Below are positions 9,341-30,323 of a stretch of DNA of 64,000 bases, in pieces. The position numbers and the translations under genes were made by a program. Numbering within the stretch: the first letter of the stretch is position 1; every line of letters starts with the position of its first letter. The notes beneath the pieces are model-generated. The model was not told the origin of the DNA. It did no database searches and saw only the letters and a program-made list of their open reading frames with translations. Source of the DNA: Fusobacterium perfoetens (GTDB lineage Bacteria > Fusobacteriota > Fusobacteriia > Fusobacteriales > Fusobacteriaceae); the NCBI RefSeq assembly GCF_021531595.1, contig NZ_JADYUD010000005.1, forward strand, positions 1 through 64,000, read 5' to 3'.

Positions 9341-9489
9341 CATTTTGAATATATTTTTATTTTACAATATTGTTTTTTTACATTATAATGTATTAATAGA
9401 TAAAAAACAGTAAAAAAGAACATATTTATTATTGTTTTGAAACAAAAAAGTAGTTGATTAATTTATTAACTGCTTTGGGGGAGGGAAAA

Positions 9490-11487
9490 ATGATGGAAAG
9501 AACAGTTATGCTGGACAGAAGAAAAGAATATTTAGCAGGTGCTGAAAAGATTCCACAGGAAACACTTGATTTTTTAAACAAAGAGTTAAAAAGAATATTA
9601 TCAGAAAAATTTGATTATTCTGAAATAGGAAAAGATATAAATCTTTTAAAAAAATTCTATAAAGATACTCTTACTCTTGCAAAGGGATATACAGTAAAAG
9701 GAACAGAATATGAAAAAAATGCAGATGTTTTAAAGTTAGTTGAAGAAAGACTTTCAATGGGGCAGAAGTATTTCTACAATAAAAATTGTGCAGAACATAC
9801 TAATTGGTGGGTATGGGAAATAGATATCCCAATGCTTTTAAATGATATTTTTGTTTTAATGAATGAAGATATATCAAAAGATATAATGAAAGAAGTTATG
9901 GACTCTGGAAGATATTTTCAGCCAGATCCAAGATATTCAGGAAACAATGAGGGAGCTATATATACAACTAAACTTCCTCTTAGATTTTCAACAGCAGAAC
10001 ATAGAGCAGAAACAGTAAAAGTTTCCCTTATAAGAGGAATACTTGAAAATAATAAAGATGAAATAAAACTTGCTCTTAATTCTCTTATAGAAGCATGGGC
10101 ATATAAAGATGACAGCTATTCTCTTGATAGAAATGGATTCTATAGAGATGGATCATTCCTTCATCATGGAAGTATTCCATATACTGCTAAATACGGAAAT
10201 ATAATTTTAAGAGAAATAGGAGAAATTATTCATCTTGTAAGAAAAACAGAGTATGAAAAATATCTTCTTGGTCTTAAAAATTTCTACGACATAATTTTTA
10301 CTTCTTTTGAACCATTCTTCTTTAAAGGTGGATTTACAGATATGCTTAATGGAAGAGGGATTTCAGATTATACTAGCCACGATCACAAAACAGGACATGA
10401 AATGCTTAATTCGCTTCTTCTAATTAAAGAAGATGCTCCTGAAGAATATAAAAGCAAATTAGCTGAACTTATAAAATCAGAAGTTGAAAAAGATACTTTC
10501 TATAAATATTTTGAAAATGAAAAATCTCCTTTCTTTTATAATCATATGAAAGAATTATTAGAAGAAAATATTGAAATAAAAGAATATAAAGACAGACTTG
10601 TAATATGCAATAAAATGAACAGAATAATGAGAAGAGCAGAAAATTATGCTGTAGGAATTACAATGCATTCTTCAAATATTGGAAATTATGAAACTAGAAA
10701 TGGAGAAAATATAAAAGGATGGTATACAGGAGACGGAGCATATTATCTTTATGATAATGATTTAGAGCAATATAAAGATTACTGGAAAAATGTAGATTAT
10801 AACTATATTCCAGGAACAACAGAAATAAGAATGAATATGGAAAATGTTGATGCTCAGAGAAATCCTGAACATAAACCTCTTGACAGAAAAAGTGCAGCTG
10901 GTCTTAAATGGCATTATTATGGAGCTGCAGGAATGGAATTTGAAAACTGGAATGGTAATCTTACAAGTAGAAAATCTTGGGTTTTTGTAAGCTGGGGTGT
11001 AATATTTGCTGAAAGTTGCATAAAAGGAAAAGGTGAAGTTTATACAACAATTGCAAATAGAAAATTTAAAGAAGTTCCTGAAATAAAAGTTGATGGAAAA
11101 ATTTTAGATGAGGAAAGAGCAGTATTAAAAGCAGATAATGTTGAAATTAATGGAAAAATATTTATGTTCTACAAAAAAACAGAAATAAATATTGAAATAG
11201 AGAAAAAAGAAGATTGCTGTTTTGTAAAAATGTGGGTTGAACATGGAGAAAATCCTGTAAATAGTTCTCTTGTATGGGGACTTGTAATGAATAAAGGAAA
11301 TATGTCTCTTGATGAAATAAGAGAAAAGTTTGGTGTTAAAATAACAGAAGGAAAACACTTGATTAATGGAATTCAATGTAATTATGAAATTAACTGGGAT
11401 TCAAAAGTAAAAGTAGAACCATTCTGTACAGTTTATAGAAAAGAAGATAATAGGGAAAGTAGAATATATCTAAATAATAATTATTAA
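9490..11487 (+). CDS. polysaccharide lyase family 8-like protein, no signal peptide
   Basis: A 665-residue PL8 homologue (hyaluronate/chondroitin AC lyase fold: N-terminal alpha/alpha toroid, C-terminal beta sandwich). Seen: NWWVWEIDIP (aromatic cleft motif), NGFYRDGSF, catalytic-type H226 and Y235 nine residues apart, and HSSNIGNYE with the conserved Glu. The residue aligned with the catalytic Asn (N228 in the exported paralogue at 22903) is H171, so activity may be altered. No signal peptide is visible from ATG 9490, which follows a GGGGGAGGG site; the in-frame extension to 9454 has no ribosome site. Location is therefore probably cytoplasmic, unusual for PL8, suggesting action on imported oligosaccharides. 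First gene of the GAG locus, ended by its own terminator. Confidence 0.85.
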   Translation: MMERTVMLDRRKEYLAGAEKIPQETLDFLNKELKRILSEKFDYSEIGKDINLLKKFYKDTLTLAKGYTVKGTEYEKNADVLKLVEERLSMGQKYFYNKNCAEHTNWWVWEIDIPMLLNDIFVLMNEDISKDIMKEVMDSGRYFQPDPRYSGNNEGAIYTTKLPLRFSTAEHRAETVKVSLIRGILENNKDEIKLALNSLIEAWAYKDDSYSLDRNGFYRDGSFLHHGSIPYTAKYGNIILREIGEIIHLVRKTEYEKYLLGLKNFYDIIFTSFEPFFFKGGFTDMLNGRGISDYTSHDHKTGHEMLNSLLLIKEDAPEEYKSKLAELIKSEVEKDTFYKYFENEKSPFFYNHMKELLEENIEIKEYKDRLVICNKMNRIMRRAENYAVGITMHSSNIGNYETRNGENIKGWYTGDGAYYLYDNDLEQYKDYWKNVDYNYIPGTTEIRMNMENVDAQRNPEHKPLDRKSAAGLKWHYYGAAGMEFENWNGNLTSRKSWVFVSWGVIFAESCIKGKGEVYTTIANRKFKEVPEIKVDGKILDEERAVLKADNVEINGKIFMFYKKTEINIEIEKKEDCCFVKMWVEHGENPVNSSLVWGLVMNKGNMSLDEIREKFGVKITEGKHLINGIQCNYEINWDSKVKVEPFCTVYRKEDNRESRIYLNNNY

Positions 11488-11498
11488 AATATAAAATG

Positions 11499-11530
11499 AG
11501 CTGGAGTTTAAAAAACTCTGGCTTTTTTTA
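11499..11530 (+). terminator. terminator after the first PL8 gene
   Basis: Hairpin AGCTGGAGTTT with AAACTCTGGCT (two G-U pairs), short A loop, then seven T. Confidence 0.85.
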
Positions 11531-11582
11531 TTGTAAAAAATTAAGGAAATAAATTTTATTTTATAAATGAGAAAATAAGCAG

Positions 11583-11590
11583 TTTTCCAC
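11583..11590 (-). promoter_or_regulatory. GTGGAAAA element upstream of the second PL8 gene
   Basis: TTTTCCAC on the + strand reads GTGGAAAA on the - strand. The same 8-mer occurs upstream of kduD (13764) and of the porin (17481), with a one-base variant before the autotransporter (18779). A shared regulator site is possible but unproven. Confidence 0.25.
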
Positions 11591-11725
11591 AATTGGTCTA
11601 TTATAAAGAATTAATCTTAGCAAAAACTTTGAATTAAAAAATATGAAATAATGATGATTGACTTGTGTTCTGAAATAATGATATTAATTTGTTAATATAT
11701 AATAAATAGATTCGGGGGAAAATTA

Positions 11726-13687
11726 ATGATAGAAAAAATAAGTATATTAAACAAAAGAAGAGAGTATCTTGAAGGAAATGGATTTACTCCAGTTGATACT
11801 GTTACTTTTTTAAATCAAAGTATTACAAGAATACTTATAGAAGATGAAAATTCGGGATTTGATGAGAGAGAAAAAAATATTGAAGAAATAAAAAGATTTT
11901 ATGAAAACACTTTAATTCTTACAAGAGCTTATAAATCAGTTGGAACTAATTATTATAATGATATGGATATTCTTAAATTGATAGAAGAAAGATTAAAACA
12001 AGGAGAAGAAAATTTTTATAATAGAAATATTAAAATTAATGAAAACAGTCAGTATACATTTGAAATAGAGATACCTCTTATAATAATTGATATTCTTATT
12101 ATGACAGAAGGAAAATTAAAAGAAAAAATATTTAATTCTGTTCTTGAAACAATAGAATACTTTCAACCAGATTCAAGATATATAGGACATCATATGGAAA
12201 ATTTTGGATTTTCTCACGGAGCATGGAGGGCAAAAGCTGTAAAGATTTCTTTTTTAAAGGGGCTTTTATCAAAAAATGAAAATGAAATGATTCTTGCCTT
12301 AGGGGCTTTATCTGAAGTTTGGGAATATAAAGATGACAGTTGTTCTCTTAATAGAGACGGATTTTACAGAGACGGATCTTTCTTAAGCAGAAGTATAGCA
12401 GATGCAGGAGGAGATGGAGCAGAAATAATTCATAGTTCTGCAGAAATAATTTATCTTATATCAGAGAGTGGTTATGAAAAATATTTGAAAGGAATAAAAA
12501 ATTTTTATGATATAATCCTTAAATCTTTTGAACCATTTTTCTTTAAAGGAGCTTTCAGTAATATAATTGCAGGAAAAAAAGAATATGATCATAAGATAGG
12601 GCATAAAATAATAAATGCTTTTCTTCTTGCAGGAATATGTGCTCCAAAAGAATATAAAGACAAAATATTAAAAGTTGTAAAAAGAGAGATAGAAAAAGAA
12701 AGAACTTATAAATATTTTGAAAATGAAAAATCATCATTTTTATGCAGTAAAATGAATGAACTTTTAAGCAGAGATGATATAGAAACAGAAGAATATAAAG
12801 ATCAAGTTATAGTGTGCAATAATATGGACAGAGTAATAAAAAGAAATAAAGATTATTCTATAGGTATTGCAATGCATTCAAGCACTGTAGGAAATTATGA
12901 ATGTAGAGATTTAAAAAAAAGTAAATACTGGTTCACAGGAGATGGAGCATATTGCCTTTATGACGAAGATACAGAGCAGTATAAAGATTATTGGGAAAAT
13001 GTAGATTATAACTATATTCCAGGAACAACAGAAATAAAAATGAATATGGAAAATATTAATGCTCAGAGAAATTATAAAACTGGATATGCTGAAAGAAATA
13101 TGACGGGAGCTCTTAAATGGCATTATTATGGAACAGCAGGAATGGACTTTATAAACTGGAATGGAGACTTAACAAGCAGAAAATCATGGTTTTTTGTAAG
13201 CTGGGGAGTTATATTTGCTGAAAGCTGTATAACAGGAAAAGGTGAAGTTTATACAACAGTTGCAAATAGAAAATTTAAAAATATTCCAGTAATAAAAGCA
13301 GATGGAAAAGAAATAAAAGATAGGGATATAAAAATAAAAACAGAATTTCTTGAAATAGATGGAAGAATATACATGTTCTATGAAAAAACAGAAATTAATC
13401 TTTCTGTTGAAAAAAGAGGGGAATATTATTTTGTTAAAGTATGGAAGGAATATGGAACAGATCCTATAAATAGAAACTTTGTATGGGCAATTGTTATGAA
13501 AAATATAGACACAAAGGATTTGAGAGAAAAATTTGCAGTTACTTTAACTGAGGATAAACATCTTCTAAAGGGAGAAAAATGTAATTATGTAGTGAATTGG
13601 AGAGCCGAAGAATTAACAGAACCATTCTGTGTAATATACAGAAAAGATGATAACAGAGAGAGCAGAATGTATATTAAGAACTATTAA
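11726..13687 (+). CDS. degenerate polysaccharide lyase family 8 paralogue lacking catalytic residues
   Basis: A 653-residue tandem paralogue of the preceding PL8-like protein, colinear over its whole length (same DGFYRDGSF, KNFYDII, FEPFFFKG, NYIPGTTEI and RKSWFFVSWGVIFAESC blocks). The active site is stripped. The catalytic Asn position is W167, the His position is R222 and the Tyr position is G231. The NWW cleft motif is replaced by NSQYTFEIEIP, and the Arg-bearing GRxxSR-type loop is AGKKEYDH. The reading frame is open to the expected end, so it is kept as a protein and may serve a non-enzymatic role such as binding or regulation. ATG 11726 follows GGGGGAAA. No signal peptide. Catalytic numbering is by alignment to the exported paralogue and to known PL8 enzymes. 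Confidence 0.85.
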   Translation: MIEKISILNKRREYLEGNGFTPVDTVTFLNQSITRILIEDENSGFDEREKNIEEIKRFYENTLILTRAYKSVGTNYYNDMDILKLIEERLKQGEENFYNRNIKINENSQYTFEIEIPLIIIDILIMTEGKLKEKIFNSVLETIEYFQPDSRYIGHHMENFGFSHGAWRAKAVKISFLKGLLSKNENEMILALGALSEVWEYKDDSCSLNRDGFYRDGSFLSRSIADAGGDGAEIIHSSAEIIYLISESGYEKYLKGIKNFYDIILKSFEPFFFKGAFSNIIAGKKEYDHKIGHKIINAFLLAGICAPKEYKDKILKVVKREIEKERTYKYFENEKSSFLCSKMNELLSRDDIETEEYKDQVIVCNNMDRVIKRNKDYSIGIAMHSSTVGNYECRDLKKSKYWFTGDGAYCLYDEDTEQYKDYWENVDYNYIPGTTEIKMNMENINAQRNYKTGYAERNMTGALKWHYYGTAGMDFINWNGDLTSRKSWFFVSWGVIFAESCITGKGEVYTTVANRKFKNIPVIKADGKEIKDRDIKIKTEFLEIDGRIYMFYEKTEINLSVEKRGEYYFVKVWKEYGTDPINRNFVWAIVMKNIDTKDLREKFAVTLTEDKHLLKGEKCNYVVNWRAEELTEPFCVIYRKDDNRESRMYIKNY

Positions 13688-13918: not shown

Positions 13919-14701
13919 ATGAATGAAATGTTAGACAAATTTTCAATGGATTTCTTTTCATTAAAAGGAAAGGTAGCAATAGTAACAGGTGGAAACACAG
14001 GATTAGGACAAGCATATGTTGTAGCACTTGCTAAAGCAGGAGCAGATATGTTTGTTGTAACTTACGATACAGCATGGGACGAAACAAGAGAATTAGTAGA
14101 AAAAGAAGGAAGAAAAATTCACTTCTTCCAAGCTGATTTAACTGACAGAGCTCAGGTAACAGCTTGTGTTGAAGAATGTGTAAAAGTATACGGAAAAATA
14201 GATATATTAGTAAATAATGCTGGAACTATAAGAAGAGCTCCTCTTCTTGAATATAAAGATTCTGACTGGGAAGCAGTTATAAACATTAACTTAAACTCAG
14301 TTTACTACTTAAGCCAAGATGTAGCTAAAATAATGGCTAAACAAGGTGGAGGAAAAATAATTAATGTTGCTTCAATGTTAGCATTCCAAGGTGGAAAATT
14401 TGTACCTCCATACACAGCAAGTAAACACGGTGTTGCAGGTATAACTAAAGCATTTGCAAATGAATTAGCTCCATTAAACATTCAAACAAATGCAATAGCT
14501 CCAGGATATATTAAAACAGCTAACACAGCTCCAATAAGAGCAGATGAAAAAAGAAATGCAGAAATTTTATCAAGAATACCAGCTGAAAGATGGGCAGATC
14601 CATTTGATTTAATGGGAGCAATCGTATTCTTAGCAAGTAAAGCATCAGATTATGTAAATGGACATATTTTAGCAGTTGACGGTGGATGGCTAGTTAGATA
14701 A
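13919..14701 (+). CDS. kduD: 2-dehydro-3-deoxy-D-gluconate 5-dehydrogenase
   Basis: A 260-residue classical short-chain dehydrogenase. It reduces 2,5-diketo-3-deoxygluconate to 2-keto-3-deoxygluconate with NAD(P)H in unsaturated-uronate catabolism. Seen: the cofactor-binding TGGNTGLG (residues 23-30), NNAGT, the catalytic S in NVASM, and Y165-xxx-K169 in PPYTASKHG. Its closeness to kduI (59 bases between the genes) makes KduD the natural assignment among SDRs; the length matches E. coli KduD (253). Note that the two kdu genes contain more C-ending codons than the lyase genes before them, consistent with high expression. Confidence 0.93.
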   Translation: MNEMLDKFSMDFFSLKGKVAIVTGGNTGLGQAYVVALAKAGADMFVVTYDTAWDETRELVEKEGRKIHFFQADLTDRAQVTACVEECVKVYGKIDILVNNAGTIRRAPLLEYKDSDWEAVININLNSVYYLSQDVAKIMAKQGGGKIINVASMLAFQGGKFVPPYTASKHGVAGITKAFANELAPLNIQTNAIAPGYIKTANTAPIRADEKRNAEILSRIPAERWADPFDLMGAIVFLASKASDYVNGHILAVDGGWLVR

Positions 14702-14760
14702 TAACAGCTGTCACAAAGATTAAATAAAAAGTTTAAATTATTTTAGGAGGAAATTAATAA

Positions 14761-15597
14761 ATGAAATTAGATGTAAGATATGCAAATCACCCAGAAGATT
14801 CAAAACATTATACAACTGAAGAATTAAGAAAACATTACTTTATAGAAACTATATTTGTTGCAGATGATGCAAACTTAACTTATTCTCATGTTGACAGAAT
14901 AATTGCAGGAGGAATCATGCCTGTAACTAAAGAAGTTAAACTTGAAGGAAGCAAAGAATTAGGTTCTGAATTTTTCTTAGAAAGAAGAGAACTTGGAGTA
15001 ATCAATATCGGAGGACCTGGAAAAATAGTTGTTGACGGTGTTGAATACAAAATGAATTCAAGAGACGGACTTTATGTAGGAATGGGTTCTAAAGAATTAA
15101 CATTCTCATCTGACGATGCAGAAAACCCTGCTAAATTCTATGTAAACTCAGCTCCAGCACATACAACATATCCAATCGTAAAAATTGATATAGAAAAAGC
15201 AAACCCTGTTAAATTAGGAAGCCTTGCTAACTCAAACGAAAGAACAATATTCCAATATGTTCACCCTGCAGTATGTAAATCTTGTCAATTACTTATGGGA
15301 ATGACAGTTCTTGAGCCAAACAATATGTGGAACACAATGCCTTGCCACACTCATGAAAGAAGAATGGAAGTTTACTTCTACTTCAACATGCAACCTGAAA
15401 CAAGAGTATTCCACTTAATGGGAGAACCAACAGAAACAAGACACATAATCGTTGGAAATGAACAAGGAGTAATCTCTCCATCTTGGTCAATTCACTCTGG
15501 TGTAGGAACAAGTAACTACACATTTATCTGGGGAATGGTTGGAGAAAACCAAACATTTACAGATATGGACCATGTAGCTATGGAAGATTTAAGATAA
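14761..15597 (+). CDS. kduI: 5-dehydro-4-deoxy-D-glucuronate isomerase
   Basis: A 278-residue cupin-fold, zinc-dependent isomerase. It converts 5-keto-4-deoxyuronate (from unsaturated uronic acid released by the glucuronyl hydrolase) to 2,5-diketo-3-deoxygluconate, the KduD substrate. The zinc ligands fall at H196, H198, E203 and H245 (CHTHERRME and WSIHSG), the same numbering as in E. coli KduI, and the length is the same 278 residues. An AGGAGG site precedes the ATG. A terminator follows directly. Confidence 0.97.
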
Positions 15598-15814: not shown

Positions 15815-17386
15815 ATGAATTTAAAAAAATTTCTTGCAGGATTTATTATTCTTTTCAGTTTTGCAGGATGCAGTTTCAAGGAAAGTGATAGTAAAAAATT
15901 ATCTGTAAAAAAGGCAGAAGGAACAGTCATAAGTGAAAATCCTCAGGAATTTACAATATTTGCAATTCATTTAGGAAAAGCTTTTAATGGAGAGCTTCCT
16001 GTTTTTAATAAAGCTTTTGAAATGACTAATATAAAACTTAAAGGAATAGCTTCTAAAAATCAAAGTGATGAAGTTTTAGCATTCAATCTTATGATGGCAG
16101 CAGGAGAACTTCCTGATATAATAGCTTATGAACTTCCAGAAGAACTAGAAAAATTAGGAGCAGAAGGAAAAGTTATTCCCCTTGAAGAACTTGTTAATAA
16201 ATATGCACCAAATATAAAAAAGTTCTGGGAAGAAAATCCAGGTTACAAAAAAGATGCAGTTGCAGCTGATGGTCATATATATATGATTCCAAACTATAAT
16301 GATTATGATAGCATAAGTACATCACAAGGTTATTATATAAGAAAAGACTGGTTAAAAAGATTGGGACTTAAAGATCCTAAAACATTGGAAGAACTATATG
16401 TTGTCCTTAAAGCTTTCAGAGAAAAAGATCCTAATGGAAATGGAGTTAAAGATGAAATACCTCTTTTTTTAAGAGGAAATACATCAAAAAAAATAATTTC
16501 ATCTCTTGCAGATATTTTTAAGGCAGAATACAGCTGGTATAGCAAAGATGAAAAAGGCCCTGTTTTTGGACCAGCAGAACCTGAATATAAAGATGCAATA
16601 AGAGAACTTGCAAAATGGTATAGAGAAGGTCTTATTGATTCAGAAGTATTTACAAGAGATGTTTCTTCAAGAGATTATATTTTAAATAATAATCTTGGAG
16701 GATTTACATGTGATTGGTTTTCAAGTACAGGAAACTACAATAGCAGACTTGGAAATGCTATTCCAGGATTTGATTTTTCAGTAATTCTTCCTGTTGAGTA
16801 TAAAGGAAAAAGAACTACATCATTTGCAAGGGAAAATTATCTTGGAGGATGGTCAATAACAAAAGCAGCTAAAAATCCAGTTGAAATAATTAAATATTTT
16901 GATTTCTGGTATACTGAAGAAGGAAGAAGACTGTGGAACTTTGGAGTTGAAGGAGATACATATGTTATGGAAAATGGAAAACCAAAGTTTACAGATAAAG
17001 TCTTAAAAAATCCTGATGGAATTATTCCACTTATGGTATTAAGAGGAGAAGGAGCACAATACAGACTAGGAATGTTTCAGGATGGAGAAAATGAAAGACA
17101 ATGGGCAGATCCTGAAGCTGTTTCTGCAATGGATCTTTATATAAAATCAGGTGTGGTAAAATCTCATATGCCAATATTAAAATATACAAAAGAAGAAACA
17201 GCAGAACTTTCTAAAATAGATAGTCAACTTTATTCAATAGCAGAAGAAATGACACAAAAATGGATACTTGGAGTATCTGATGTTGATAAAGACTGGAAAA
17301 ATTATATGAGGCGTTTAAGAAGTGTAGGTCTTAAAAGAGCAGAGGAAATTCAGAGACAGGCATATAAAAGATTTATGGAAAAATAA
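15815..17386 (+). CDS. ABC-transporter solute-binding lipoprotein, probably for unsaturated GAG oligosaccharides
   Basis: A 523-residue extracellular/periplasmic sugar-binding protein (family 1, LplA-like). The lipobox FAGC puts the lipidated Cys at residue 19. The DPNGNGVKDEIPLF segment is the calcium-site-like loop common in this subgroup. Streptobacillus moniliformis, also in Fusobacteriota, uses a protein of this type with an ABC importer for unsaturated GAG disaccharides, and the present gene sits between kduI and a porin in a lyase locus, so the same substrate class is inferred. No ABC permease or ATPase gene accompanies it in the GAG locus; those must be encoded elsewhere, or the protein serves another role. 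It has its own promoter and terminator. Confidence 0.85.
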   Translation: MNLKKFLAGFIILFSFAGCSFKESDSKKLSVKKAEGTVISENPQEFTIFAIHLGKAFNGELPVFNKAFEMTNIKLKGIASKNQSDEVLAFNLMMAAGELPDIIAYELPEELEKLGAEGKVIPLEELVNKYAPNIKKFWEENPGYKKDAVAADGHIYMIPNYNDYDSISTSQGYYIRKDWLKRLGLKDPKTLEELYVVLKAFREKDPNGNGVKDEIPLFLRGNTSKKIISSLADIFKAEYSWYSKDEKGPVFGPAEPEYKDAIRELAKWYREGLIDSEVFTRDVSSRDYILNNNLGGFTCDWFSSTGNYNSRLGNAIPGFDFSVILPVEYKGKRTTSFARENYLGGWSITKAAKNPVEIIKYFDFWYTEEGRRLWNFGVEGDTYVMENGKPKFTDKVLKNPDGIIPLMVLRGEGAQYRLGMFQDGENERQWADPEAVSAMDLYIKSGVVKSHMPILKYTKEETAELSKIDSQLYSIAEEMTQKWILGVSDVDKDWKNYMRRLRSVGLKRAEEIQRQAYKRFMEK

Positions 17387-17660: not shown

Positions 17661-18623
17661 ATGAAAAAGATTATATTTGTGTTTGCAGCATTATTTGCTT
17701 TCTGTTCTTTATTATATGCTGAAGATGTTAAAAAGGAATCAAAATGGACAGGGCGTATTATTCCAAGGGTTGAGGTTGAAGATACACATAGTTATGGAGA
17801 GGAAGATGCACCACCTCAGTTATGGATAAAAAAAGTAAATGGAATATTAAAACATAAGGACTATTCAAACTGGACATTTATATATGAAATTCGTGAAGCT
17901 GAATGGGGAACTGATTATCTTTTTGATGAGGTAAATTCTAAGCAGATGTACAGAGTATATCCTGGAATTCAGTATTCAAGAAAATTTACAGATAAATTAA
18001 CTCTTGGAGTGACAGTAAGAGACAGATGGCAGTATCAAGAAACAGCTAAAGGAAAAACAGATTTTAAAGTAAATTCCTATAGAATAGCTCCAAAATTTGT
18101 TTATCAAATTACAGATAAACTTGATTTTCATGGAGAAGTATATTTTATGAAAGATATATTTTATGACCGTAATCCTGAAAAATCAAAAATTCAAAGAAAT
18201 AGTACAGGTTATGAAATTACAGGAGTAGGATTTACATATAGATTTAGTCCAGGTATGTATTTTATGGCAGACTATTGGGAAGAAGGATGGGAAAAAGAGC
18301 ATAGAAGTAAGTATGATGGAGATAAAATGAGACATCAGCAAATAAGACCAAGACTTGCTCTAAAATTAAATGAAAAAGATACTCTTGAACTTTATGGAAG
18401 AATTCAGATACTTGGAGATCAGGTTACAAGAGATGATAAAAAAGGAAAAATAGAAGTAAAAAGAAACAGATATGGTTTTGATTTTATACATAAAATAGAT
18501 GAAAGCTTTACAGTAAATGTAGGTTTTGCTGTTGAACCTGAAATAAGAGAAAAAACTTATGAAGGTAATGTAAAGAAAAGAGACTGGTATTACTATACAG
18601 GGCGTTTAGTATATAAATTCTAG
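17661..18623 (+). CDS. KdgM-family oligosaccharide porin
   Basis: A 320-residue outer-membrane protein with a signal peptide (residues 1 to about 20, ending LLYA before EDVKK) and alternating amphipathic strands rich in Tyr, Trp and Arg, ending in the outer-membrane signature VYKF with a terminal Phe. The pattern (QIRPRL, ELYGR, DWYYYTGRLVYKF) fits the KdgM monomeric 12-strand porins that pass acidic oligosaccharides. The start is ATG 17661 behind AGGGGAGAG; the longer frame from 17601 would bury the signal peptide. In this locus it would admit GAG oligosaccharides to the periplasm. Its strand pattern resembles the last 320 residues of the neighbouring autotransporter. Confidence 0.85.
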   Translation: MKKIIFVFAALFAFCSLLYAEDVKKESKWTGRIIPRVEVEDTHSYGEEDAPPQLWIKKVNGILKHKDYSNWTFIYEIREAEWGTDYLFDEVNSKQMYRVYPGIQYSRKFTDKLTLGVTVRDRWQYQETAKGKTDFKVNSYRIAPKFVYQITDKLDFHGEVYFMKDIFYDRNPEKSKIQRNSTGYEITGVGFTYRFSPGMYFMADYWEEGWEKEHRSKYDGDKMRHQQIRPRLALKLNEKDTLELYGRIQILGDQVTRDDKKGKIEVKRNRYGFDFIHKIDESFTVNVGFAVEPEIREKTYEGNVKKRDWYYYTGRLVYKF

Positions 18624-18668: not shown

Positions 18669-18707
18669 AAACAGGAGAAGTGTACCCATGCTTCTCTTGT
18701 TTTTTTA
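18669..18707 (+). terminator. terminator of the porin gene
   Basis: Stem AACAGGAGAAG with CTTCTCTTGTT (one G-U pair), loop of about 10 bases, and a T run. Confidence 0.85.
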
Positions 18708-18916: not shown

Positions 18917-21900
18917 ATGGGAAAGGAAAAAAGATTACTTTTACTGGCAGTGATGACAGTATTAATCAGTACAACAGGATATGGAACTGAAATTTATGAA
19001 GCAAAACTAGAAGAACAATATATAACAAAAAATTTTCCTGTTCTTTCAGGAAATGGGCATCAGCTTAATCAAGGAATAGAAGAAAATGACAAAACAAAAG
19101 TAACTAATAAACTAAATATAACAGTAAATGGTGAAAAAGCAAAAGGGATAGTTTTGTATTATGATAAAGATAAAAAAGGTGAAAATATTTTTGTTAATGC
19201 AGAAGAAGGTAAAATAATAATAGAAAAAGGAATAGGAATTGAAATAAAGCAAAAAGGAACAGCTGTTAATAAAGGGGAAGTAATTATTAATAGTGGAACA
19301 GGAATTGCAGCTAATGGTGATAAAACATCTAAATTTATAAATGAAAATAAGTTAACTGTATCTAATAAAAATTCTATAGGAATCATTGTAAATAGTGGAG
19401 CAAAAGCAGAAAATAACGGAATAATAGATGTAAAAAATGGTGGAATAGGAATAAATATAAAAAATCAAACTTCAGATTTTTATAATAATGAAAATAGTAT
19501 GATAAATGTCTTTGGAATTGCTTTAGAATATGATAAAAATGGAAAAATAGAAAAAGGAACAGCTTCTGTTGGAATTAAAATTGATGATGGAGAAGTAAAT
19601 AACAAAGATGGAGAAGGAGTTGTTAACAGAGGAATAATAAATGTAACAGCTGGAGATAAACTTTTAAAAAATAATAAAAGTGAAGTTGTAGGAGAAGTTA
19701 GTGGAGTAGTATTAAATAATAACGCAAATTTCAAAAATGAAGGAACAATTTATGTAATAGGGACAAGAGTAGGCGGTCCTTCTGCGTATCAAGCAAAAGG
19801 TATAAATATAAATAAAGCAGGTGCAACTGTAGAAAATGAAGGAACTATAGTAGCAGAAAGAGACGGTATTGGAGTTTTATCAAAAGGAACTTTCACTAAT
19901 AATGAAAATGGAAATGTTTATGCTCAAAATAAAGGTATTGGAATACAGACAGGAAATAGTGGAAAAGCTATAAATAAAGGGACAGTAAAAGTTATTCAAA
20001 ATAGTATTGGAATAAATATATTAAAAGATACATTTGCAATAAATGAAAAAACTATAACAACAGATGGAACAGGTACAGGAGTTCAACTTACAAACGGAGT
20101 ATTTATAAACAGCGGTAAAATTAATGCTGGTATTGGAAATACTATTGTGTCTGCTTCAGGAAACAATACTGTATATTTAAAAGATGGAAGTGAAATAACA
20201 GGAAAAATTTTAGGAGCTGAAGGTGTTGATGTTCTTACTCTTGGAAAAGGAAATCATGAAGGGCTTAATGTAGGAAAGTATGAGGCTATAACTACAAGAG
20301 AAGGAGATGTTTCTATTTCAAATTCAACAATAGCTTTAGAATATAATAAAGGTACAAATGATTATTTAACAGAATCAAAAAATAAATTAGATGATATTGA
20401 TAAGAAAAATAATGAAAGTAATAAAAAGAATGATGAAACTGGAAATCTTTTATTAAAAAATTCAAATTTAATTATTGATTTAAAAAATAAAAAAGTAGAA
20501 AATCCGTCAGAAAATATTTTGGGAACTATGATAAATGTAGATAACAATAAAGATATAATTCTTGAAAATGTTAAATTTGCTTTTAAATCTAATAAAGAGA
20601 ATAAATTTGATATTTCAACTATTTTAAATGATGCTACAGATGGAAAAATAACTAATGATAAGTTAGATTATTTAGGATCAAGTAGTACAGCAATTTGGAC
20701 TTATTCAAAAGATAAAAAAGGTAATTGGTATGCTACTAAAAAAACATTTGGAGAAGCCTCAAAATCTCAAGTAGATAAATTTGCACAGTTTCTTGATGAA
20801 GGAAAATTGAGCTTATATACAAATGAACTTCAATTCTTGTCTCAAAAAGAATTTGATAAAGGAATGGCTCAGCTTTCAGGAGGTCTTCATGGATATACAG
20901 TTGATATTGCAGCAGTAAATTCAAGAACACTTTCAAATACAATGAGAGAAAGAGCTCTTACGAGAGATTATTTAATAAAAAGACCTGTAAGTTCTTGGAT
21001 ACAGGACATAAGTTATATAGATAACAACCATAGATTTGGAGGTCTTATGGATGTTAAATATAATGAAAAGGGAGTAATTGGAATTTCTGAAAAACAAATA
21101 CTTTCAAATGGAAAACTTGGACTTGTTTATGGAGGTTCAAGTGGAAAAGCAGATGCAGAGGATAATGGAAATATTGATGTTGATACAGCATATTTTGGAG
21201 GATACTATAATCATGAGTTTAATGATAAATGGTCTTTAAATTCAAATGCTAATTTTGTATATACTCATAATAGAGTTACAAGAAATGTAAAAATAGGAAA
21301 TCTTTCTGAAGAAGTTTTTAAAGCAAATTACCCTACATATACAGTCGGAATGGGATCATCACTTGTTTATACATTAAAAGATGATTTATATAACAAAGCA
21401 CATTTTTATGCAGGAATTGATGTAAACAGAATCATGCAGGGAATGATAACAGAAGATGAGGATAAGAAATTTGATGGAGCAAAAGAATTAGCAGTGAGAA
21501 AAAATGGAGCTGCTAATGATAAATCATATTATTCAATAGTTCCAAGTGCGGGATTTATGGTTCAAAATACAGGGTATATATTTGATAAAAAATATAGAAT
21601 TGGAGCAGATTTAAACTGGGAAACAGAAGTTGGAAATATTAAAGATGGAAAAAGATTACATATGAAGGGTATTACAGATGAATACAAAGTGGGAACAACA
21701 GAAAGAGAAAATATATTTTCATATAGCTTATTTGGAGCTTTAAATTTAACAGAAGATTTAGCTGTTAATACGAAATATACTTCAAAGTTTTCTGATGAGT
21801 ATAATGCAGATATGATAAGTGCAGGTTTTGAGTATAAAATGGATACAATGGGAGACAACGGTATCTTTGGACCAATATTCTATGGAATTGAAAATAATAA

Positions 21901-22876
21901 GCCTATGTCAGACAGATGGGGAGGAACTTTATCGTTAATGATGGAAACTCTTGATGACACAGACAGAACTTATTATGGTGGTGGAAAGTTAAATGGTGGA
22001 GATTATGCAACTTCTACAATTTATAAACCAAAATTTACTTTAAGTTTAAATGATAAGAAATCAAATCTGGGATATTATTTTGAGGGATATTATCAAAATA
22101 ATAAAATGCTTCAAGGGATGAAGTCAAATGAAGCTAAAATGCATGCTTCAAGAATTCATGGAGAAGTAAGATGGACAGATACATATTCAAAAGGAAAATA
22201 TGGAATAAACATAGGGTATAGACATGAAGAGTCAGATAAACCACAGAACTTTAATCAAACATATTACAGAAGAACAGAGAGAAAAGTTCACCAATTAAGA
22301 CTTACTCCAAACTTTACTTATGAACTTGGAAATGGATTTACATTTACAGGAAAAACAACAGGAATATTTGAATATAACTATGCAGGGGATAGAGATTCTC
22401 AAATGGATTTCTTAATGGAAAATGAATATGGAATAGTTTATACAGGATTTATGCCTAAATGGAGACTAAGCTTAATTTATTTTAGAGATGATAGATGGTA
22501 TGATAATTCAAATAGAAAAGTATCATGGAATTCTAAGAAAAAAGAATATTTTTATGACTACAATACTTCAGGAAGATATCAACTTGGACAAATCAGACCT
22601 ACTGTAATTTATTATTTTGGAAACGGAGGAAGTTTTAAATTTGATACAAGAATTCCTTTAGGAAACGGACAATGGTATGATGATAAAAAAGGAAATAAGA
22701 GCAGTGGAGAAGCTTATGAAGTAAGATACGGATTTAACTACTATCATCCTGTAACTCCAGGGCTTACTATGAATGTTGGAGGAACATTCTTAAATATTAA
22801 AAATAAAGCAAAAAATGGAGATATTACAAGAAGTTATTCATTCAGACCTAATATTGGATTCAGCTACAGTTTTTAA
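18917..22876 (+). CDS. type V autotransporter carrying a second, C-terminal porin-like barrel
   Basis: A 1319-residue exported protein. Signal peptide 1 to about 23. Passenger of about 600 residues made of N/G/I-rich repeats (for example INVKNGGIGI, NEGTIVAERDGIGV) typical of a beta-helix. An autotransporter beta domain covers about 685-975, starting at RPVSSWIQD and ending AGFEYKM as such barrels usually end. It does not stop there. A further 344 residues (976-1319) again read as amphipathic strands, with RWGGTLSLMMET, QLRLTPNFTYEL, QIRPTVIYYF and a terminal GFSYSF. This tail matches the length and motif order of the neighbouring KdgM-like porin (QIRPRLALKL; final YTGRLVYKF). I infer a fusion of autotransporter and porin. 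Strong GGAGG start site; PL8 lyase gene follows 26 bases later, so the two are probably co-transcribed. Confidence 0.85.
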   Translation: MGKEKRLLLLAVMTVLISTTGYGTEIYEAKLEEQYITKNFPVLSGNGHQLNQGIEENDKTKVTNKLNITVNGEKAKGIVLYYDKDKKGENIFVNAEEGKIIIEKGIGIEIKQKGTAVNKGEVIINSGTGIAANGDKTSKFINENKLTVSNKNSIGIIVNSGAKAENNGIIDVKNGGIGINIKNQTSDFYNNENSMINVFGIALEYDKNGKIEKGTASVGIKIDDGEVNNKDGEGVVNRGIINVTAGDKLLKNNKSEVVGEVSGVVLNNNANFKNEGTIYVIGTRVGGPSAYQAKGININKAGATVENEGTIVAERDGIGVLSKGTFTNNENGNVYAQNKGIGIQTGNSGKAINKGTVKVIQNSIGINILKDTFAINEKTITTDGTGTGVQLTNGVFINSGKINAGIGNTIVSASGNNTVYLKDGSEITGKILGAEGVDVLTLGKGNHEGLNVGKYEAITTREGDVSISNSTIALEYNKGTNDYLTESKNKLDDIDKKNNESNKKNDETGNLLLKNSNLIIDLKNKKVENPSENILGTMINVDNNKDIILENVKFAFKSNKENKFDISTILNDATDGKITNDKLDYLGSSSTAIWTYSKDKKGNWYATKKTFGEASKSQVDKFAQFLDEGKLSLYTNELQFLSQKEFDKGMAQLSGGLHGYTVDIAAVNSRTLSNTMRERALTRDYLIKRPVSSWIQDISYIDNNHRFGGLMDVKYNEKGVIGISEKQILSNGKLGLVYGGSSGKADAEDNGNIDVDTAYFGGYYNHEFNDKWSLNSNANFVYTHNRVTRNVKIGNLSEEVFKANYPTYTVGMGSSLVYTLKDDLYNKAHFYAGIDVNRIMQGMITEDEDKKFDGAKELAVRKNGAANDKSYYSIVPSAGFMVQNTGYIFDKKYRIGADLNWETEVGNIKDGKRLHMKGITDEYKVGTTERENIFSYSLFGALNLTEDLAVNTKYTSKFSDEYNADMISAGFEYKMDTMGDNGIFGPIFYGIENNKPMSDRWGGTLSLMMETLDDTDRTYYGGGKLNGGDYATSTIYKPKFTLSLNDKKSNLGYYFEGYYQNNKMLQGMKSNEAKMHASRIHGEVRWTDTYSKGKYGINIGYRHEESDKPQNFNQTYYRRTERKVHQLRLTPNFTYELGNGFTFTGKTTGIFEYNYAGDRDSQMDFLMENEYGIVYTGFMPKWRLSLIYFRDDRWYDNSNRKVSWNSKKKEYFYDYNTSGRYQLGQIRPTVIYYFGNGGSFKFDTRIPLGNGQWYDDKKGNKSSGEAYEVRYGFNYYHPVTPGLTMNVGGTFLNIKNKAKNGDITRSYSFRPNIGFSYSF

Positions 22877-22902: not shown

Positions 22903-25314
22903 ATGAAAAAAACAATATTAATATTTATGATGCTTACATTGGCGATTACTTCTTTCTCTGCAGAAAAAGAAGCTGGTGTTAATAAAAATAAAAAGATTGA
23001 AATAAATCAATCTGAAAAGGAAGATTATAAAAGAATAAGAGAAAAATGGGCATATTATTTATCAGGCATTCCTAAAAAAACTGATATTTCAAAAATGAGT
23101 GAACAGGAATTTAAAGAAATATGTGAATCTAATGATAAAGCAGCTGATAAATCTTATGCAAAAATAAACAGAGATATAAATAAAACATATGTATTTGAAG
23201 GTTATGAAGATATGTCAAACGGGGTTCACATTATGAGAACTTACGATGAGGTTAAAAATATAGCAAAAGCTTATGTAACACCAAATACAAAATACTATAA
23301 GCAACCAAAAGTAAAAGAAGATTTAATAAATATGTTAGATTGGCTTTATGATAATGCTTATCATGAGGGACTTCCTGAAACAGGAAACTGGTGGCAATGG
23401 GAACTTGGAATACCAAAACATTTAAATGATATTTTAATTCTTTTATATGATGATGTTCCTTATGAAAAAAGAATGAAATATTTAAAAGCTTCTCAATACT
23501 TTCAGCCTTATGCACAATATTCAGGAGTAAGCCCATCAGCATCTTACTCAACATCTCCTGATAAAAGAGTTTCAACAGGAGGAAATAGAATAGATACTTC
23601 TATAATCTCTTTCTTAAGAGGAGTATTAATGGAAGATAAAGTTCAAGTTATTGATGGAGCAACAGCAGTAGCAGATGTAGGTGAATATGTAACAGAGGGA
23701 GATGGATTTTATAGAGATGGTTCATTTATTCAACATGGAAATGTTGCATATAATGGTACTTATGCCTCAGTTCTTTTTGATGGGTTAGGTTCAGTTTTAT
23801 GGCTTGCAGATGGAACTCAGTTTGAAGTAAAAGATGAAAGAATAGATAATGTTTATGAATCTATTATAAATGGATATAAATATTTATTTATAAACGGAGG
23901 AGTAAATGATTCTGTAAGTGGAAGAGCAACATCAAGAGATAATTCAAGTGATCTTTCAAGAGGAAAAGATCTTCTTACTTCACTTTCTCTTCTTGCTGTA
24001 GGAGCTGGAGAAGAATATAAAGATGAAATTAAATCTTTAATAAAAACAGTAGCCAAAGAAAATAATTCTTATAATACTGCAGAAAAAATAAATAATAAGA
24101 TTGCAAAAGCAATAATAACAGAAATAGTAAATGATAAAAATGTAAAAACTTTAAAAGTTGAAGGAAATAAAATTTATGGAGCTATGGACAGGGCAGTTAC
24201 AGTAAATGATAAAGGTGGAAAAGTCGTTCTTTCAATGCACTCTTCAAGAATTGCTAATTATGAGACAATGAATAATGAAAATGTAAAAGGTTGGTATATT
24301 GGGGATGGAATGACATATATTTATGGAAATGATTCTGAAACTTTTACAGAGTTTTGGCCTACAGTTGACAGACTTCACCTTCCAGGTGTAACAAATAGCC
24401 AAAATAAAAGAGGAGATAAATCTGGAGAAAGAAGAGTTCAAACTTCTGGAAAAGCTTGGGTAGGAGGAAGTGGAAATGGTCAGGAATCATTTGTTGGAAT
24501 GGATATGATTTCATGGAATAAGGCAACAAGAATGAAAAAATCATATTTTATGACAGATGATGGAGCTATGTTTGTTGCTGCTTCAAATATAAGAAGCAAT
24601 GATGGAGAACTTCACACTACTATTGATAATAGAATTATAAAAAATGGTAAAATAATTTTAAATGGAAAAGAGATAAAAGAGGAAACAGTTATTGAAAATC
24701 CTGAAAATATTTCATTAAACTTTAGTGAAAACTATAAAGGGGAAAATATAGGATACAAAATAGTATATGCTCCTCAGCTTACAGTAAAAAAAGAAACAAG
24801 AAAAGGAAACTGGCTTGAAATAGGTGGAACCAAAAAAGATGAGATAGTAAAAGATTATTTTACAGCCTATATTAATCATGGAAAAAACCCAAGAAAAACA
24901 GGATTTGCTTATATAATACTACCTATGTACTCACAAGATGAAGTTAATAAATATGATACATCAAGATTTGAAATAATAAGATTAGATGAAAAGGCTCATA
25001 TTATAAAAGATAGAAAAACAGGAATAGTTGGAATGAACTTCTGGCAAGATACTCCTATGAAAGAACAAGGAATAAAATCTTATTCAACATTATCTCTTTT
25101 AATGAAAGATAGTAATAATTTTGTAGATATTTGGGTAAGTGATCCTACACAACTTTCAAATTATAAATCAATTTTTGAAATTGATGGAAAATATAAATTA
25201 GAAGATAGCTCATCTGAAAATATAACAGTAAAATCAGAAAAAGATAAAACAAAAATAGAAATTGATTTAAGAAATAATGGAGCTTCAGAACATATAAGAC
25301 TTAAAAAACTATAA
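22903..25314 (+). CDS. exported polysaccharide lyase family 8 (hyaluronate/chondroitin lyase)
   Basis: An 803-residue PL8 lyase with a signal peptide (about residues 1-19, ending TSFS before AEKE), so periplasmic or surface-located. It cleaves the hexosaminide-uronate bond of hyaluronan/chondroitin by beta-elimination, giving 4,5-unsaturated oligosaccharides. All catalytic positions are intact: NWWQWELGIP cleft aromatics, N228 in GGNRID, H278 and Y287 in FIQHGNVAYNGTY, R341 in the GRATSR loop, and the Glu in HSSRIANYE. Length is within the family norm (about 700-1000). It follows the autotransporter-porin gene by 26 bases and ends at a strong terminator. Exact preference among hyaluronan, chondroitin and chondroitin sulfate cannot be told. 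Confidence 0.93.
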   Translation: MKKTILIFMMLTLAITSFSAEKEAGVNKNKKIEINQSEKEDYKRIREKWAYYLSGIPKKTDISKMSEQEFKEICESNDKAADKSYAKINRDINKTYVFEGYEDMSNGVHIMRTYDEVKNIAKAYVTPNTKYYKQPKVKEDLINMLDWLYDNAYHEGLPETGNWWQWELGIPKHLNDILILLYDDVPYEKRMKYLKASQYFQPYAQYSGVSPSASYSTSPDKRVSTGGNRIDTSIISFLRGVLMEDKVQVIDGATAVADVGEYVTEGDGFYRDGSFIQHGNVAYNGTYASVLFDGLGSVLWLADGTQFEVKDERIDNVYESIINGYKYLFINGGVNDSVSGRATSRDNSSDLSRGKDLLTSLSLLAVGAGEEYKDEIKSLIKTVAKENNSYNTAEKINNKIAKAIITEIVNDKNVKTLKVEGNKIYGAMDRAVTVNDKGGKVVLSMHSSRIANYETMNNENVKGWYIGDGMTYIYGNDSETFTEFWPTVDRLHLPGVTNSQNKRGDKSGERRVQTSGKAWVGGSGNGQESFVGMDMISWNKATRMKKSYFMTDDGAMFVAASNIRSNDGELHTTIDNRIIKNGKIILNGKEIKEETVIENPENISLNFSENYKGENIGYKIVYAPQLTVKKETRKGNWLEIGGTKKDEIVKDYFTAYINHGKNPRKTGFAYIILPMYSQDEVNKYDTSRFEIIRLDEKAHIIKDRKTGIVGMNFWQDTPMKEQGIKSYSTLSLLMKDSNNFVDIWVSDPTQLSNYKSIFEIDGKYKLEDSSSENITVKSEKDKTKIEIDLRNNGASEHIRLKKL

Positions 25315-25342: not shown

Positions 25343-25373
25343 AAAACCCACAGATATTTCTGTGGGTTTTTTA
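25343..25373 (+). terminator. terminator after the exported PL8 lyase
   Basis: Perfect 12-bp stem (25343-25354 with 25359-25370), four-base loop, T run. Confidence 0.93.
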
Positions 25374-25561: not shown

Positions 25562-26971
25562 ATGAAAAAACCAAATTTATTGTTTGTTTTTGCTGATCAA
25601 TGGCGTAGAGATGCTATGGGATTTATGGAAAAAGACGAAGTTATTACACCAAACATAGATAAGTTTTCACAAGAGTCTTTAAGTTTTGACAATGCTATGA
25701 GTGCTTGTCCTTTATGTTCTCCAAACAGAGCAACAATGTTCACAGGAACATATCCTGTTACAAATGGAGTATGGACTAACTGTAAACCAGGATTAAAAGA
25801 AGTAGCACTAAGAGAAACAGATATAACTTTAATGGATGTTTTAAAAGAAGCAGGATATAAAACAGGATATATTGGAAAATGGCATTTAGATAGTCCAGAA
25901 GTGAACTTCTGTGAAGCACCTGTATCAGGAGCAAGAGACTGGGATGCATTTACTCCTCCTGGAAAAAGAAGACATGGAGTAGATTTTTGGTATTCATATG
26001 GAACTTATGATCAACATTTAAAACCTCATTACTGGCATAATGATGAAAAAATGATAAATATAGATCAATGGTCAGTTGAACATGAGACAGATAAGGCTAT
26101 TGAATTTATAAATGAAAATAAAGATGAACCATTTTCTTTAGTAGTATCTTGGAATCCTCCTCATACTCCTTTAGACTTAGTTCCTCAAAAATATGTGAAT
26201 ATGTATGCAGGAAAGAAATTTAAAGTAAATCCTAATGTACTTCTTACAGAGGTAACAGATCATACAGGAGCAGTAAATCCAAGACTTAACTTTACAGATG
26301 ATGAGTATCAGGAAATAATGAGAAAATATTTTGCAGCTGTAACAGGAATAGATGAAAATTTTGGAAGACTTCTGCAAAACTTAAAAGATAATGGAATATA
26401 TAATGACACTATAATAGTTCTTACAGCCGATCATGGAGAAATGTTATGTGCACATAGATTATGGAGTAAACATGTTTGGTTTGAAGAATCAACAGGAGTT
26501 CCATTCTTAATAAAATATGGAGACAGATTTATAAAAGGAAGAACAGACAATGTTCTTAATGGTGTTGATATTATGCCTACAATTCTTTCTCTTATGAATC
26601 TTCCAGTTCCTGAAACTGTAGAAGGAATTGATTTAAAAGAAGTGGTTCTTCATGGAGATAATATAGAAAATTTTGCAATAATGTCAGGATATCCTGGACA
26701 AATGAGAGCAATAAAAGAATTTGAAGAACATGGAAAAGAAAATGTTGCTTATGGATGGAGAGCAATAAGAACAAAGCAACATACTTATGTAGTAAACAAA
26801 GGATACACTATGTCACATGGAACAGAAAGACTTCTATATGACAACATAAAAGATCCATATCAAATGAATCCTTTAAGACTTAAAGATTGTAAAGAAAATG
26901 AAATAGCAGAATTTCTTGAAGGAAAATTAAGAGAATGGGCAGAAAAGTACAAAGATAAGTTTGAGTTTTAA
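25562..26971 (+). CDS. type I (formylglycine) sulfatase, cytoplasmic
   Basis: A 469-residue sulfatase of the alkaline phosphatase superfamily. Metal-binding DQWRRDAMG occurs near the N-terminus, the active-site CSPNR gives the Cys to be converted to formylglycine at residue 52, and there are GKWH and TADHGEMLCAH. Removal of ester sulfate from unsaturated GAG disaccharides before glucuronyl hydrolysis is inferred from the adjacent gene. There is no signal peptide from ATG 25562 (behind AGGAGTGGG), so it acts inside the cell on imported sugars. The upstream in-frame extension from 25478 lacks a ribosome site. A Cys-type sulfatase in an anaerobe normally needs a radical-SAM maturase, not present in this window. 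Regiospecificity (2-O, 4-O or 6-O) is not determinable. First gene of a five-gene unit. Confidence 0.9.
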   Translation: MKKPNLLFVFADQWRRDAMGFMEKDEVITPNIDKFSQESLSFDNAMSACPLCSPNRATMFTGTYPVTNGVWTNCKPGLKEVALRETDITLMDVLKEAGYKTGYIGKWHLDSPEVNFCEAPVSGARDWDAFTPPGKRRHGVDFWYSYGTYDQHLKPHYWHNDEKMINIDQWSVEHETDKAIEFINENKDEPFSLVVSWNPPHTPLDLVPQKYVNMYAGKKFKVNPNVLLTEVTDHTGAVNPRLNFTDDEYQEIMRKYFAAVTGIDENFGRLLQNLKDNGIYNDTIIVLTADHGEMLCAHRLWSKHVWFEESTGVPFLIKYGDRFIKGRTDNVLNGVDIMPTILSLMNLPVPETVEGIDLKEVVLHGDNIENFAIMSGYPGQMRAIKEFEEHGKENVAYGWRAIRTKQHTYVVNKGYTMSHGTERLLYDNIKDPYQMNPLRLKDCKENEIAEFLEGKLREWAEKYKDKFEF

Positions 26972-26990
26972 TAAATTTTAGGAGGGTAAA

Positions 26991-28181
26991 ATGGAGTTAA
27001 CTAAAGAAGTAAGAGAGAAATTTTCAAAAGAAACAGAACTTCCAAAAGAAATGCTTTTCGGAGCTCTTCATGAAGCACTGAAAAAAATAGATGGAAATAC
27101 AAAAACTTTTATCAACACATTCCCAAGACCTTGCAGTACAAACTATGTTTATCCAGGGATACTAAATGGAGGAGAATGGGATGATTGGACAAGTGGATTC
27201 TGGACAGGAATGTTATGGCTTGCATATGAAATAACAGGAGAAGAAAGATATAGAAAAACAGCATTCTTCCAAATTAAAAGCTATGATGAAAGAATTACAA
27301 ATAAAGTTGCAGTAAATCACCATGACCTTGGATTTTTATATACTCCTTCAGTAGTTGCAGGATATAAAATTACTGGAAATGAAAGAGCAAAACAAGCAGG
27401 GCTTAAAGCAGCAAATCATCTTCTTGGAAGATATAAAGAAAAAGGTGAATTTATTCAAGCATGGGGAGACTTAAATGATCCTACAGCATATAGATTAATA
27501 ATAGATTGTAACTTAAATGTACCTCTTCTTTTCTGGGCAAGTGAAGTTACAGGAGATTCAAAATATAGAGAAATAGCAACAAAACATATAAATACAGCAG
27601 CAAAAGTAGTAGTAAGAGAAGACAGCTCTACACATCATACTTTCTATTTTGATCCGGAAACAGGAAATCCTGTTAAAGGTGTTACAGCTCAAGGAGCAGG
27701 AGATGACTCTGCATGGGCAAGAGGACAAGCATGGGGAGTTTATGGATTCCCACTAGCTTACAGCTATTTAAAAGATGAAAAATTTGTAGAATTATTTAAG
27801 AGAGTAACAAATTATTTCTTAAATCATCTTCCATCAGATGATATCTGTTATTGGGATCTTATGTTTGATGAAAATTCAGGAGAAGAAAGAGATACATCAG
27901 CAGCAGCAATAGCAGTATGTGGAATGCTTGAAATGATAAAATACCTTCCTGATTCAGATCCAGATAAGAAGATATATGAAAATGCAGTAAATTCTATAAT
28001 GAAATCACTTATTACAAAATATACAACTAAAAATATAGAATATTCAAATGGACTTCTTACACAAGCAGTATACAGTAAACCTAACGGTTCAGGCGTAGAT
28101 GAATGTTGTATATGGGGAGATTACTTCTATATGGAAGCTCTTGTAAGAATAATGAAACCAGAATGGAAAAAATATTGGTAG
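26991..28181 (+). CDS. ugl: unsaturated glucuronyl hydrolase (GH88)
   Basis: A 396-residue alpha/alpha-barrel enzyme that hydrates the double bond of unsaturated uronic acid at the non-reducing end of GAG disaccharides, releasing 5-keto-4-deoxyuronate and an amino sugar. The two acidic residues expected for GH88 are D112 (NHHDLGFLY) and D172 (LIIDCNLNVPLLFWAS), with the same spacing as in the Bacillus enzyme. Other family blocks are WDDWTSGFWTGMLWLAYE and ARGQAWGVYGF. No signal peptide, hence cytoplasmic. It follows the sulfatase by 19 bases; its product is the KduI substrate. Confidence 0.96.
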   Translation: MELTKEVREKFSKETELPKEMLFGALHEALKKIDGNTKTFINTFPRPCSTNYVYPGILNGGEWDDWTSGFWTGMLWLAYEITGEERYRKTAFFQIKSYDERITNKVAVNHHDLGFLYTPSVVAGYKITGNERAKQAGLKAANHLLGRYKEKGEFIQAWGDLNDPTAYRLIIDCNLNVPLLFWASEVTGDSKYREIATKHINTAAKVVVREDSSTHHTFYFDPETGNPVKGVTAQGAGDDSAWARGQAWGVYGFPLAYSYLKDEKFVELFKRVTNYFLNHLPSDDICYWDLMFDENSGEERDTSAAAIAVCGMLEMIKYLPDSDPDKKIYENAVNSIMKSLITKYTTKNIEYSNGLLTQAVYSKPNGSGVDECCIWGDYFYMEALVRIMKPEWKKYW

Positions 28182-29671: not shown

Positions 29672-30310
29672 ATGGAAGAAATAAAATCTTTATTTATGAA
29701 AGATAAATTAGAAAAAACAATAAAAAGTTTAAAAGAAAACGGATTTGAAGTGGAAGTTGTAAATACTCCTCTTGAAGCTGAAGAAAAAACACTTAAACTT
29801 ATTCCTGAAGGAAGTTCTGTAAGTATGGGAGGCTCTGTCACATTAAATATGACAGAGCTTTTACCTAAATTCAGAACAGAAAAATATAAGTTTTTTGAAA
29901 GATTCAGTCAACCTACATGGGAAGCCACTGTCAAAGTCATGAGAGAATCGCTTTTAAGTGATTTTTTAGTAACAGGAACAAATGCTGTTACTGAAGACGG
30001 CTTCCTTATGCAGATTGACTCAGGAGGAAACCGTGTTGCAGGTATGGCATACGGACCAAAGAATGTTATAGTAATAACAGGGATTAATAAAATTGTAAAA
30101 GATATTCACGAAGGATATGAAAGACTTTATTATGCAGGTCCTCTTAATTCAAAAAGGCTTAATCATAAAACACCGTGCAATTACAGCGGTAAATGTGAAG
30201 ATTGTACAACAGGTATGAGAATGTGTAATTTTGTTTCAGCAGTAAATAGTGGAAACAGACCATTTGGAAAAACATATGTCATATTTATTAATGATAATTT
30301 AGGATACTAG
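29672..30310 (+). CDS. LUD-domain (LutC/YkgG-like) protein with a Cys cluster
   Basis: A 212-residue member of the lactate-utilisation (LUD/DUF162) superfamily. It shows SVSMGGSVTLNMTELL, the GTNAVTEDGFLMQIDSGGNR core and VITGINKIVKD, followed by a C-terminal stretch with four cysteines (residues about 168-185, CNYSGKCEDC and a later MRMC) that could bind metal or an Fe-S cluster. Stand-alone proteins of this group have no firmly established reaction. It is 28 bases behind the symporter and 13 bases before a divergent paralogue, in a GAG operon where no function for it is known. Confidence 0.85.
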   Translation: MEEIKSLFMKDKLEKTIKSLKENGFEVEVVNTPLEAEEKTLKLIPEGSSVSMGGSVTLNMTELLPKFRTEKYKFFERFSQPTWEATVKVMRESLLSDFLVTGTNAVTEDGFLMQIDSGGNRVAGMAYGPKNVIVITGINKIVKDIHEGYERLYYAGPLNSKRLNHKTPCNYSGKCEDCTTGMRMCNFVSAVNSGNRPFGKTYVIFINDNLGY

Positions 30311-30323
30311 GTGATAAATAGAT

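Follow-up and report, generated by a model that had tools for sequence, protein, structure and literature searches.

Organisation of the locus and of the two-barrel gene

The window analysed in this study, a stretch of 64,000 nucleotides from Fusobacterium perfoetens, contains a glycosaminoglycan (GAG) utilisation locus (Table 1), in which PL8, GH88, sulfatase, kduI and kduD genes are found together. Judged from their sequences, the genes neighbouring the open reading frame of interest form a GAG pathway. This frame, preceded directly at its 5' side by the SD GGAGG, encodes from the N- to the C-terminus a signal peptide, a passenger, an autotransporter barrel recognised by Pfam (barrel 1) and 344 more residues, referred to here as the tail. 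The coordinates, the length of 1319 aa and the 26-bp distance to the following PL8 gene, as given in the initial annotation, were all exact on re-examination, and the frame does run on past AGFEYKM at the end of barrel 1, through the whole of the tail, to GFSYSF.

Table 1 Features of the two-barrel gene and of the surrounding GAG locus, in window coordinates.
Feature	Coordinates	Strand	Remarks
Two PL8 lyases	9454..13687	+	No evident signal peptide
kduD-type dehydrogenase and kduI isomerase	13919..15597	+	For unsaturated uronate
Solute-binding lipoprotein	15815..17386	+	PF01547; Smon0123-type position; conserved in related loci
Stand-alone porin, barrel 2 homologue	17661..18623	+	ATG at 17661 (mechanical ORF from 17601)
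Probable terminator between porin and two-barrel gene	18670..18706	+	11-bp stem AACAGGAGAAG/CTTCTCTTGTT, 10-nt loop, T tract; by eye
Two-barrel ORF	18917..22876	+	1319 aa, single frame without interruption
Signal peptide, residues ~1-23	18917..18985	+	MGKEKRLLLLAVMTVLISTTGYG; boundary set by eye
Passenger, residues ~24-651	18986..20869	+	Probably beta-helical; repeated NxGxIxV units
Barrel 1 (autotransporter) with its linker helix, residues 652-975	20870..21841	+	PF03797
Internal beta-signal ISAGFEYKM, end of barrel 1	21815..21841	+	Fits zxGxxPhixPhi
Inter-barrel linker, residues 976-999	21842..21913	+	Translation; variable length in alignment
Barrel 2, OmpG/CymA-like, 14 predicted strands, residues 1000-1319	21914..22873	+	Homology and model
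C-terminal beta-signal PNIGFSYSF	22847..22873	+
Partner gene: exported PL8 lyase of hyaluronate/chondroitin lyase type	22903..25314	+	PF08124, PF02278, PF02884
Probable terminator 3' of PL8 gene	25343..25370	+	12-bp stem and T tract; terminator scan
Sulfatase and GH88 unsaturated glucuronyl hydrolase	25562..28181	+	PF00884, PF07470

The proposed tight coupling of the two-barrel gene to an exported PL8 lyase was supported, as such a gene is located directly downstream on the same strand in 15/15 loci, with a gap of 4-26 bp, of which the 4-bp value comes from an open-ended reading frame, so that the true gap there is larger. The pairing is strict in one direction only: every two-barrel gene has its lyase, but among 23 exported PL8 genes inspected, 9 lack a two-barrel gene next to them, so that the lyase does not strictly depend on it. 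Inspection by eye indicated that the partner lyase of the window carries a signal peptide but neither a lipobox nor a surface anchor of its own, and its scores against NF053732 and NF043001 were below the cut-offs. Probable terminators on both flanks suggest that the two-barrel and PL8 genes constitute a unit of their own, separate from the porin gene; the upstream hairpin, whose loop exceeds the limit of the terminator scan, was read from the sequence.

The solute-binding protein of the window has no adjoining ABC permease/ATPase, unlike its counterparts in loci L020, L023, L025 and L028, and a genome search for the usual ABC permease gave weak matches only; a GPH-type symporter (28213-29643) is present in the window locus in place of the ABC partners. 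Two adjoining LUD-domain proteins (PF02589; window 29672-30899) recur by the GAG locus in L026, L027, L031, L032 and L066. A second, larger PL8-superfamily lyase with chondroitinase ABC-type domains is encoded 3' of the PL8 gene in L019 (14118-17039), and large proteins similar to it were observed in L020 (14331-17279) and L066 (12119-15043). The GAG locus L062 (genome G024) has PTS-like genes replacing the ABC transporter, as judged by eye, together with an exported PL8 and no two-barrel protein, which other members of this genus do have.

PL8, sulfatase, GH88, kduI, kduD and the solute-binding protein are common to the window locus and the GAG cluster Smon0115-0128 of Streptobacillus moniliformis (PMC5430744), for which the outer-membrane step of GAG import was stated to use 'an unknown channel/transporter' (PMC5430744). 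No two-barrel protein was found in Streptobacillus-like genomes, where an OMP-like protein approximately 690 aa long comes directly after GH88 instead (L067, 17597-19675; L070, 3175-5229, minus strand). This protein, which has no significant Pfam match, was rejected as a diverged tail homologue given the absence of profile similarity, and it is a possible alternative outer-membrane channel.

Barrel 1 and the passenger

Residues 724-954 match PF03797 (E 8e-10, 39.3 bits against a cut-off of 26), the only Pfam match in the protein, and barrel 1 is conserved in all relatives. The signal peptide, the variable passenger, the linker helix and a barrel matching the family model are shared with type Va autotransporters. 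However, whereas the type Va barrel lies at the extreme C-terminus, barrel 1 is followed here by 344 residues with a predicted second barrel that bears the C-terminal beta-signal, and two members have no passenger. The C-terminal extension is exceptional within the genome, since the 10 other PF03797 autotransporters all stop at the barrel, with an aromatic last strand (YRF, YKF or YEF). Across 13 sequences the internal beta-signal retains its glycine in 11 and its tyrosine in all 13, with the last residue varying between M, F, G and L, while the C-terminal F of the protein is conserved in 11/11; the beta-signal pattern is kept at both barrel ends. These conserved end signals would fit the BAM signal having shifted from the end of barrel 1 to that of barrel 2.

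The passenger is probably beta-helical and contains seven NxGx[IVF] matches; 1000 shuffles averaged 2.0 and reached 8 at most, so that the enrichment is weak. It is the least conserved region of the protein, with 28-42% identity and about 440 to 1330 residues in uncut proteins. Two relatives of 632 aa, L031 and L032, proceed from the signal peptide directly to the autotransporter barrel (PF03797, E 7e-15) and a diverged tail. The initial annotation had suggested that the passenger could capture polysaccharide, but both passenger-less relatives retain the two barrels and the lyase. Given that the passenger can be absent and is so poorly conserved, capture by this region is weakly supported and would be accessory at most.

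The tail as a probable porin of the OmpG/CymA type

The tail is homologous to the neighbouring stand-alone porin, with a similarity clearly above chance, as had been noticed from shared motifs (BLASTP E 8e-12, 28% identity over 199 aa; hhalign probability 92.8, E 4e-7, 263 columns). This porin matches PF16946 (OmpG porin; E 1e-5, 25.5 bits against a cut-off of 23). The fused tail itself gave neither a PF16946 match nor a significant Pfam match of any family, and PDB sequence searches with the tail, the tail profile and the porin returned no credible match. The possibility that the tail is a duplicate of barrel 1 was rejected, as hhalign detected no profile similarity between the two halves.

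Autotransporter barrels are expected to have 12 strands, as do KdgM-type porins. AlphaFold modelling of the tail alone, from a three-row alignment, gave 14 long strands once broken ones were merged (mean pLDDT 57, pTM 0.50). A Foldseek search with this model ranked OmpG first (E 1.5e-8), with CymA the second family in the ranking, although the fold match is only moderate, given TM-scores to OmpG of 0.5-0.65. An independent, hand-made strand grammar also yielded 14 strands for the tail; this grammar is inexact, as it found 10 strands in barrel 1 where 12 are expected. Therefore, on the Foldseek ranking and the PF16946 match of the porin, the KdgM-like label first attached to the tail should become OmpG/CymA-like, and barrel 2 most likely adopts a 14-stranded fold of this type, at low-to-moderate model confidence. 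OmpG (2iwv) and CymA (4v3g), the best fold matches, are both monomeric 14-stranded porins permeable to sugars; barrel 2 differs from them in its fusion to an autotransporter and its arginine signature, and the comparison involves identities of only 9-16% and a moderate model. The uptake of acidic oligosaccharides and a basic pore, both proposed for barrel 2, would be shared with KdgM/NanC oligogalacturonate porins (PF06178). These differ in having 12 strands rather than the predicted 14; moreover, PF06178 was absent at E<=1 among the Pfam profile matches of both the tail and the porin, and neither KdgM nor NanC was among the 50 listed Foldseek matches of the tail model.

Relatives of the two-barrel protein

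A homologue search across 98 Fusobacteriota genomes recovered the tail in 15 proteins, that of the window included, from 13 genomes, four genera and two families, and its sole match outside the fusion was the stand-alone porin of the window. No relative was found on the viral contigs and plasmids searched. An alignment spanning the passenger, barrel 1 and the tail was possible for 11 of the 15, including L024, whose passenger is cut by a contig end; in L021 and L022 the contig ends cut further in. Identity to the relatives is 34-77% in barrel 1 and 43-72% in the tail, with two more distant relatives at about 24%, and the tail is better conserved than the passenger. The same order of barrel and tail in 14 relatives refutes an artefactual fusion: a sequencing or annotation error, or the recent loss of a stop codon between two adjacent genes, might be suspected with a homologous stand-alone porin adjoining the gene, but recurrence of the fusion in two families leaves this explanation with practically no probability. 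Trees built for barrel 1, for barrel 2 and for PL8 are in agreement on most supported groups, and the two-barrel label requires three changes on the PL8 tree; one reading is an early presence of the two-barrel protein with later losses.

A joint AlphaFold model of residues 640-1319, built from three sequences, reached a mean pLDDT of only 28, and the two closed barrels are thus deduced rather than modelled. Alternatively, all of the strands, about 24-26, might join into a single large barrel, similar in size to LptD and starting with the autotransporter-like half, and no joint model speaks against this. Each half, however, has homologues that terminate with a barrel of their own, no profile similarity was seen between the halves, relatives retain a beta-signal at both ends, and the tail by itself was modelled as a 14-strand barrel. 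A single large barrel is accordingly disfavoured, and we regard it as very unlikely. The same separate homologies, paired beta-signals and tail-only model support the original proposal of two barrels in one chain, the second of porin type.

Pore chemistry and proposed function

On the strand grammar, five arginine residues of barrel 2 (R1000, R1079, R1227, R1245 and R1270) are predicted to face inward, and all are invariant in 13/13 sequences, the passenger-less ones included. At the aligned positions the stand-alone porin has Lys at the first and Arg at the last four. Arg accounts for 13% of the predicted inward positions in barrel 2, compared to 4% in barrel 1. A basic lumen of this kind, predicted from a rough topology, would suit polyanionic sugars. 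Given a two-barrel chain, conserved pore arginines and an adjoining GAG lyase in 15/15 loci, the protein is the best candidate for the outer-membrane entry of GAG sugars.

We infer that this is a tandem two-barrel outer-membrane protein whose second barrel serves, with fair probability, as the entry pore for anionic GAG oligosaccharides generated by the paired lyase. Barrel 1, as a type Va autotransporter domain, would export and anchor the variable passenger, and barrel 2, fused behind it as an OmpG/CymA-type 14-stranded pore, would like barrel 1 begin and finish in the periplasm. The PL8 lyase may cut hyaluronan or chondroitin either outside the cell or in the periplasm, and the anionic fragments would cross the outer membrane via the arginine-lined barrel 2, to be processed by the binding protein or symporter, the sulfatase, GH88, kduI and kduD. 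It is a more tentative suggestion that the whole chain acts as a single glycan device, in which either GAG or the lyase is held by the passenger or by surface loops, with barrel 1 responsible for display and barrel 2 for import of the fragments.

Two other roles for barrel 2 were considered. It may serve the PL8 lyase as a docking site or as a route of export, holding the enzyme or passing it to the cell surface beside the passenger, with no sugar pore involved. The lyase gene immediately 3' in 15/15 loci and an exported lyase lacking a lipobox or surface anchor are in keeping with this role, but the similarity of barrel 2 to the small-solute pores OmpG and CymA, the homologous stand-alone porin of the window, which is not directly followed by a lyase gene, and the exported PL8 without the barrel in 9/23 loci make it unlikely. 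An argument from the absence of other secretion systems was dropped, as a secretin is present in the genome. Somewhat less likely again, barrel 2 may have no part in transport and contribute to structure, to folding or to an adhesin surface, in which case only the passenger or the genomic context would provide the GAG link. The low-to-moderate confidence of the tail model leaves room for this, but the arginines predicted to face the pore stay invariant even where identity falls to 23%, also in passenger-less members, and the tail is more strongly conserved than the passenger. Import of GAG fragments through barrel 2 is, on this evidence, a well-motivated proposal.

Multi-barrel outer-membrane proteins have reportedly been surveyed by Solan et al. 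2021 (PNAS), a work outside the scope of our literature text searches, which retrieved no description of the two-barrel protein or of an autotransporter combined with an OmpG-type porin. Proteins with several barrels are already known: for GfcD, an outer-membrane chain, one barrel of 12 strands and one of 13 are predicted, along with a lateral gate and a middle domain in the periplasm; it is thought to act in capsule export, and its homologues have been called the largest such group (PMC11494523). GfcD and the protein described here share two beta-barrel domains per chain and a tie to polysaccharide movement through the outer membrane; by its description, GfcD differs from the present protein, whose first barrel is of autotransporter type and has a passenger, and whose second is a predicted pore of the OmpG type, encoded next to a catabolic lyase. 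The present architecture is real, conserved and linked to a lyase. The two-barrel gene provides a conserved, lyase-paired candidate for the outer-membrane step of GAG utilisation, and its domains can be deleted one at a time. It is also a naturally occurring case in which to test how BAM copes with a single chain that has an internal beta-signal and two unlike barrels, the first of which belongs to an autotransporter and has a passenger to translocate. If the single-chain device were true, it would represent a TonB- and SusCD-independent outer-membrane uptake of host polysaccharides specific to Fusobacteriota.
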